Assembly (NCBI RefSeq): GCF_000021485.1
Contig: NC_011761.1
Location: forward strand, 124,001 to 188,000
DNA: 64,000 nt
Direction of reading: 5' to 3'
DNA from: Acidithiobacillus ferrooxidans ATCC 23270
GTDB taxonomy: Bacteria; Pseudomonadota; Gammaproteobacteria; Acidithiobacillales; Acidithiobacillaceae
A program made the translations under genes and the position numbers. The notes under the pieces were generated by a model. It had not been told where the DNA came from, searched no databases, and saw only the letters and a list, made by a program, of their open reading frames with translations. The number at the start of each line of letters is the position of its first letter. Position 1 is the first letter of the stretch. Positions 8,538-8,965 of the stretch are shown here, one piece after another.

Positions 8538-8613
8538 GCCCAGGTAGCTCAGTCGGTAGAGCAGAGGACTGAAAATCCTCGTGTCGGCGGTTCGATTCCG
8601 TCCCTGGGCACCA
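8538..8613 (+). tRNA. tRNA-Phe (GAA)
   Basis: Complete cloverleaf of 76 nt with CCA encoded. The acceptor stem GCCCAGG pairs with CCTGGGC, the anticodon stem is GAGGA/TCCTC, the loop CTGAAAA has GAA at 8571-8573, and the T loop is TTCGATT. The discriminator base is A. The 3' half of its anticodon arm is repeated 134 bp downstream (8706-8720). Confidence 0.97.
8572..8586 (+). repeat. Candidate att core within tRNA-Phe (copy 1)
   Basis: AAAATCCTCGTGTCG spans the anticodon loop and 3' anticodon stem into the variable loop. It matches 8706-8720 exactly over 15 bp. Anticodon arms of tRNA genes are frequent crossover sites for tyrosine integrases. Confidence 0.6.
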
Positions 8614-8705
8614 TATAAATCAATGGCGTATACAATAAATACCCATCAGAAAAACCATTGGCACAGGCGGGCGGCACAGTAAAACCCTGCTGGATCGGTG
8701 GACAA

Positions 8706-8720
8706 AAAATCCTCGTGTCG
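8706..8720 (+). repeat. Candidate att core, orphan copy downstream of tRNA-Phe (copy 2)
   Basis: Exact 15-bp copy of the tRNA-Phe segment, but not part of any tRNA structure: the flanking sequence does not fold into a cloverleaf. It lies 95 bp ahead of an integrase-like reading frame, the arrangement expected at one end of an integrated element or its remnant. Confidence 0.6.
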
Positions 8721-8815
8721 TAGCAAAACCCCTGTAGCCGTCGGATGTGTATGCGCTTGAGTTTGGCACAGCCCCATATCACCTTGTTTGGAATCCGTCA
8801 GAACAAGACGGGTGA

Positions 8816-8965
8816 ATGGCGAGCATCAATCGTCGTGGCAAGTATTGGCGGGTGCAGATCCGCAAACGGCGCCGGTGGCACCTGCGCGGCCTGTCTAGAT
8901 TTGCCAGTCCTTGGGATAGTTCAGAAAGAATGGCCAGTTTGGATCGGTTGGGGGGTGAGGTATAA
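8816..8965 (+). pseudogene. N-terminal fragment resembling a tyrosine-recombinase (integrase) start
   Basis: The 49-codon frame begins MASINRRGKYWRVQIRKRRR, very like the conserved opening of phage-type integrases (MASIRKRG.WQVQIRRKG). After about 24 codons the similarity fades, and the frame stops at a TAA. No catalytic domain (R..HxxR..Y) is visible downstream. I read it as a remnant of an element that used the adjacent tRNA-Phe. The short match makes this call tentative. Confidence 0.45.

Follow-up and report, generated by a model that had tools for sequence, protein, structure and literature searches.

What lies behind the tRNA-Phe gene of Acidithiobacillus ferrooxidans ATCC 23270, and is it the trace of an integrated element? 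An earlier note, made from the DNA letters, had pointed to a 15-bp direct repeat and to a truncated integrase-like frame at this place, and had read them as the scar of an element that was excised or has decayed. We addressed this question in a window of 64,000 nucleotides (G000:C1:124001-188000). The genome, G000, consists of one contig of 2,982,397 bases and is the sole strain of its own species among the genomes compared.

The tRNA-Phe locus and its integrase stub

The gene upstream of tRNA-Phe is, judging from its sequence, presumably RsmI. The tRNA gene and what follows it are laid out as follows, in window coordinates:

8538..8613, plus strand: tRNA-Phe (GAA), intact integration target (tRNA call; Rfam RF00005, 72.4 bits)
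8568..8622, plus strand: att core as set by relatives, from the anticodon loop to the tRNA 3' end and a few bases more; single copy here
8614..8815, plus strand: leader of an integrase of the type that we call A, 202 bp from the tRNA to the start codon (alignments L004, L028, L031, L042 and L043; gapped L037, L038 and L039)
8816..8866, plus strand: first 17 codons of a tyrosine integrase (MASINRRGKYWRVQIRK), truncated, by homology to longer relatives
8867..8958, no strand: stretch past the break, for which no match was found; holds most of the remaining 49-aa frame
8969..9422, no strand: flank common to the Acidithiobacillus genome G007, where it directly follows the old leader

The direct repeat is real. 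The exact 15-mer AAAATCCTCGTGTCG is found at two sites of the 64-kb window and no other, one in the tRNA (8572-8586) and one in the leader (8706-8720), and the genome has a third site at 2912856-2912870 on the minus strand. When the match between the tRNA arm and the leader copy is extended, 19 of 23 positions agree. Taken alone, the bare repeat is poor evidence: four 15-mers, AAAATCCTCGTGTCG included, are repeated within 1 kb in the window, and a single run of simple sequence accounts for two of the four. It exceeds chance because the leader copy recurs at related loci.

The suspicion that the 49-aa frame (8816-8965) begins like an integrase was well founded. Its residues 1-17 are identical to those of the A. 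ferrianus integrase at 16 of 17 positions, and the DNA is homologous to that of relatives across the tRNA, the leader and the integrase start until about codon 17 (~8867), where the homology breaks. Eight other loci, some gapped, show this collinear homology (tRNA or att, leader, and integrase start where kept), and two of them have intact integrase frames. The DNA of the leader and stub is 85-92% identical to that of a paralogue behind tRNA-Met in G000 itself (L004; tRNA at L004 10964-11040), where the integrase frame has 71 codons before a stop, and to that of A. ferrianus MG (L031; G002, NZ_WNJL01000037.1), where a 248-aa frame follows tRNA-Phe. The type A frames at tRNA-Phe are listed with 344 aa in G022 (L042) and 362 aa in G021 (L043), two genomes classed in another genus of the family, the former being Acidithiobacillus sp. 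YTS05 (NZ_CP094359.1). In alignment A1, identity to L042 is 95% for L043 and 84% for L031.

The earlier note had also suggested a profile search of the 49-aa frame against recombinases, and set a lack of similarity against its own reading. The frame matched no family in Pfam or PHROGs at E up to 10. This is as expected, because only about 17 residues are homologous, and it is outweighed by the direct homology to longer relatives. The frame, a fragment ending after 17 homologous codons, is not itself a PF00589 member (no Pfam family); its parent gene qualifies as a PF00589 tyrosine recombinase through L031, the homologue given to Pfam (E 6e-12). The assignment as an integrase is based on the 17 codons and the leader. 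For the sequence beyond them (8867-8958), no source was found in the compared loci or in the 16 other genomes of the genus. There is next to no chance that coincidence explains the repeat and the integrase-like frame, as the further 15-mer pairs of the window and the empty profile searches might suggest: the collinear DNA homology with eight loci, two having an intact integrase, contradicts it, and a chance frame can be dismissed.

Several remnants and relatives of this integrase were found elsewhere. L004 10500-11040 corresponds to G000:C1 about 2912500-2913040 and is a second stub of the same integrase, with the same leader; its position differs from that of iMGE9 (Met-CAT, 2944843..2965000) in the published table (PMC10322971). 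A third related remnant of G000, at L073 about 7770-8350 (G000:C1:803771-804250), has an in-frame stop, is 56% identical and covers residues 77-242 of the 248-aa query. In A. ferrianus (L031 8878-10459) the frame is interrupted at codon 248, and just past it, on the opposite strand, lies a transposase-like ORF that we take to be IS110-like. Searches of plasmids and phages returned no record at 60% identity or more. The top phage matches of the G022 integrase include integrases of the Pseudomonas phages Shamal and PAJU2, which are distant (~43-44% identity over 98% of the protein), and the viral-contig loci, 80 of 202 being retained, stay at 40-45% identity throughout.

The att core and the origin of the scar

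The position of the att core can be read from the relatives. When their att copies are aligned, the common stretch begins with the A at 8568, immediately ahead of the anticodon loop, and reaches the end of the tRNA. The right end varies from 8613 to 8624 by copy, several copies extending 6-11 bases past the tRNA. The displaced copies have left flanks unlike the tRNA 5' half, with four extra shared bases in L037. A 27-base piece of the tRNA-Phe 3' half is present, at up to 2 mismatches, in 16 of the 17 genomes of the genus (G000 included), with two copies in G004 and G005, three in G007 and G012, and one in G000. Among 12 family genomes of other genera, 10 have it at up to 3 mismatches, and it is double in G018, G021, G022, G024 and G026. 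At up to 2 mismatches, no second att copy was found in G003, nor in G000 (attR), and the window today does not qualify as a tRNA-integrated island or ICE.

Two groups of sequences at these att copies deserve mention. L028 (G007), L033 (G012) and L039 (G004) have an identical distal end, TTGAAATATAACAAAACTG, just left of the att copy, and perhaps mark a further recurring element at tRNA-Phe. Eight loci (L032, L033, L035, L082, L085, L087, L096 and L103) have in common ACAATCCTC right of the core. These other sequences lie past an att core of tRNA-Phe; several of them have an integrase of a different type, and ACAATCCTC resembles the anticodon arm too.

The 15-mer was not upheld as a duplicated att core. 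The core of the relatives begins at 8568, extends at least as far as the tRNA end and is single in G000, and the copy at 8706-8720 belongs to the integrase leader. Since it is also in the same leader behind tRNA-Met, it is part of the upstream region of the integrase and travels with it, and is therefore no by-product of integration at tRNA-Phe. We consider it very improbable that the element was excised and left one duplicated 15-bp core. The repeat is exact, and its first copy falls within the anticodon arm, the place at which the core of the relatives starts, but its second copy sits in a leader that is likewise found in A. ferrianus, elements with a type A integrase have separate and longer att copies, and the leaders of L037 and L039, beside a tRNA-Phe att copy, are without the exact 15-mer. 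Nor would any leader survive precise excision. The single true core and the 15-mers in leaders elsewhere lead us to reject this candidate.

We conclude that the locus is very probably the decayed left end (attL side) of an element of the type A tyrosine-integrase family that was integrated at tRNA-Phe, the rest having been lost by deletion. The homology, the place beside the tRNA, the att core and its single copy are direct observations. The integrase stub, the leader and the att-flanked relatives bear out the scar proposed by the earlier note, and of its two causes, decay by deletion fits the stub, and excision is unlikely as the direct cause, since the leader and stub persist. Precise excision restores the tRNA and removes the leader and integrase; the stub therefore points to a deletion that included the distal att copy. 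In the proposed sequence of events, an element would insert by recombination in the anticodon loop and give the tRNA back its 3' half; the integrase gene of the element would then read away from the tRNA. A deletion would later take all past integrase codon 17, with any distal att copy, so that the tRNA stayed intact, followed by the leader of 202 bp and the stub of 17 codons. The lost element was presumably like those of the relatives.

Among the published titles and abstracts at the top of the search lists, none describes this locus. The passages and tables consulted of a study of Acidithiobacillus integrated elements (PMC10322971) give nine in ATCC 23270 and ATCC 53993, none of them at tRNA-Phe, and repeats of 48-49 bp for four tRNA elements (Table 1). 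These iMGEs and ICEAfe1 likewise target tRNA genes, and their 48-49 bp are close to the 46 to 57 bases found here. In contrast to the iMGEs of Tables 1 and 2 of that study, none at tRNA-Phe, the present one is a stub without a second repeat.

Flanks and att-flanked elements in the relatives

The genes that follow the stub had been described by the earlier note as accessory types. We found no tie between the element and the BRO-N, DUF6868 and methyltransferase genes, and the flank is partly common to the three relatives in which neighbours were compared (G003, G007 and G012). In G007 and G003, DUF6868 (9054-9299) has a stop-free copy; the G012 contig has none. BRO-N (9571-10080; 128 aa from an inner ATG) is stop-free in G007, has a stop in its G012 match (dN/dS 0.67) and is absent from the G003 stretch, and so looks variable among relatives. 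The methyltransferase gene (10110-10904; top Pfam match Spermine_synth) and the rhodanese gene (11019-11417) are stop-free in all three. The dN/dS is 0.12-0.24 for the stop-free copies of DUF6868, BRO-N and methyltransferase, and 0-0.03 for rhodanese. Conservation of the whole of 8614-9053 in strains with no mobile genes, which the earlier note had set against its reading, was not observed: no genome of the genus matches it whole.

Two short stretches of this flank recur elsewhere. Window 8959-9041 matches G007 (L040 10361-10443) at 86-87%, away from the tRNA-Phe flank. Pieces of 25-45 bases of window 9429-9498 are found at 89-100% in G002, G004, G005, G012 and G013, away from tRNA-Phe, and are possibly the remains of a dispersed repeat.

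Integrases at this tRNA are frequent. Of 19 genomes compared, 12 have sequence similar to type A or B integrases behind tRNA-Phe; within the genus the figure is 9 of 16, and the window is counted in both. This survey used tblastn with two queries, one per type, at E up to 1e-3, so that unrelated integrases would escape it; three of its stretches are short, and G013 was left out, its contig ending inside the tRNA.

The relatives also raise the possibility of accretion. In G007, immediately ahead of the same old leader and of the flank 8969-9422, there is an att copy that borders on different sequence on its left side. The G007 leader is cut at the equivalent of 8823, and the 49-aa frame is therefore not conserved there. 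On a separate contig, G007 has tRNA-Phe followed by a different 380-aa integrase (PF00589, E 3e-31). It looks as if newer elements accreted at the same tRNA, the linkage between the tRNA and the distal att being presumed across the contig gap. In G003, which shares 9022-9329 beyond its island, 15.7 kb separate the tRNA att end from the 9022 flank, and in G004 one att copy is joined to a type A leader. These arrangements suggest that a newer element may once have been inserted before the old stub of G000 and later precisely excised, the present site being its empty site. We regard this addition to the deletion account, which it would supplement and not replace, as possible, if on balance doubtful: G000 itself bears no sign of a newer element, the two G007 ends are on different contigs, and a second att copy is missing from G003 when up to 2 mismatches are allowed.

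Elements with both ends are found in the other genus. The type A integrase adjoins the tRNA att copy in G022 and G021, where the att pairs, in one orientation, are 145,350 bp and 103,080 bp apart, respectively. The 60 bases left of the distal att are identical in the two genomes. G021 was assessed on its att pair and integrase. For G022, frames of 350 codons or more number 45 in the stretches compared, including one that lies upstream of the tRNA; 20 of the 45 were searched in Pfam. Among these 20, we identified conjugation and maintenance families (VirB4/TrbE-like, TrbI, TrbL, ParB, ArdC and a topoisomerase) and cargo genes, among them those for two P-type ATPases, for an RND pump and for a DsbD-like protein. 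One ORF has TniB, one has a Mu-type transposase C-terminal domain, and two have no Pfam match at 1e-5. No relaxase family was found among the 20 ORFs; one of them carries DUF3363, which we take to be a domain of relaxase-like proteins. With two att copies, an integrase and conjugation genes, the 145-kb element of G022 is ICE-like, and its scanned ORFs resemble those of a conjugative element and not of a phage. The YTS05 element spans G022:C1:2568402-2713778 (L071, L076, L090-L095), and it has genes of the metal-efflux type.

The integrase leader and its anticodon-arm-like motif

The leader motif is the sole part of the locus with some novelty, the remainder being an ordinary decayed scar. The leader has four motifs:

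8700..8720, plus strand: anticodon-arm-like motif, including the 15-mer (8706-8720) and a GGA-N7-TCC inverted repeat; putative site of the integrase or a regulator
8658..8665, plus strand: TTGGCACA repeat 1, putative arm-type site
8673..8678, plus strand: GGCACA repeat 2, putative arm-type site
8763..8770, plus strand: TTGGCACA repeat 3, putative arm-type site; one base altered in L031 and in L042

The 15-mer of the leader lies 93 bp past the end of the tRNA. The window, L004 (tRNA-Met), L028 (G007) and L031 (A. ferrianus) have an exact copy, whereas that of L037, L039, L042 and L043 has diverged; in L038 it is deleted. We compared the leaders of the window, L004 and L031 (Acidithiobacillus) with those of L042 and L043 (the other genus). 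The mean identity over 8614-8867 is 62%, and the top non-coding 15-base stretch is 8700-8714 (GGACAAAAAATCCTC, 93%), followed by stretches that contain the TTGGCACA repeats (84% and 83%). The conserved part of GGACAAAAAATCCTC is the GGA-N7-TCC inverted repeat, and the motif nearly copies the anticodon stem-loop of tRNA-Phe. The tail CGTGTCG, which completes the 15-mer, lacks cross-genus conservation. GGACAAAAAATCCTC may be a binding site of the integrase or of another regulator, and the whole pattern resembles that of core-type and arm-type integrase sites.

Mimicry of the tRNA was assessed with 300 shuffles for each of 30 rows, one for every tRNA in the given loci, some of them not beside an integrase. 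In the five type A rows that have the motif, the observed match was reached by no shuffle for L004, L031 and L041 (the same place as L031), by 5 for L042 and by 7 for L043. The type A row with the leader deletion (L038) gave 91, and none of the other 24 rows fell below 22. Hence, mimicry seems confined to type A, and the broader idea that integrases at tRNA ends generally have leaders resembling the tRNA they target was discarded on these 24 rows. With a 23-base query and 500 shuffles, the window, L004, L028, L031 and L037 all gave 0, L039 gave 6, and the leaders of G022 and G021 gave 36 and 31. The cross-genus likeness to the tRNA is therefore weak, and the case is carried by the conserved block. 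The motif does not track its target tRNA: in L004, the copy behind tRNA-Met, it agrees with the arm of tRNA-Phe at 18 of 21 positions and with the arm of its own tRNA at 15 of 21, and L037 and L039 have a diverged form of it beside a tRNA-Phe att. In a more distant relative, L044, reading by eye revealed no mimic, and TTGGTGCA-like repeats were seen instead.

A segment of the anticodon stem-loop was reportedly described, in a paper of 2018, as the recombination determinant of Acidithiobacillus ICEs. Tentatively, we propose that the type A leader carries a conserved mimic of the target anticodon stem-loop (GGAYAAAAAATCC vs GGACTGAAAATCC), ~87 bp past the tRNA and with two fossil sites in G000, that could serve as a decoy core for self-repression of the integrase or for recombination direction, a suggestion that we rate as rather unlikely.

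The arrangement has a counterpart in known systems. In the portions consulted of work on the KplE1 intS-type integrases (STI, PMC2951348), an integrase gene reading away from its tRNA is repressed by its own product via the attL region, and such autoregulation is predicted for the majority of tRNA-linked integrases. There, as here, the tRNA and the integrase have the same direction with the attL region between them, and the spacing of 202 bp comes near the mean reported for predicted autoregulated cases, an interval of 208-228 bp (PMC2951348). The passages on KplE1 intS make no mention of a leader copy of the anticodon arm. The arrangement and the conserved leader motifs fit a putative autoregulated STI integrase.

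These results add tRNA-Phe to the integration hotspots of the genus and connect a fossil of 17 codons with large att-flanked elements that form a family in a different genus. They also carry a lesson: a short repeat at a tRNA gene is not necessarily an att core, and here it is an element of the integrase leader. The decoy core, if true, would provide a simple test of self-control by tRNA-end integrases.
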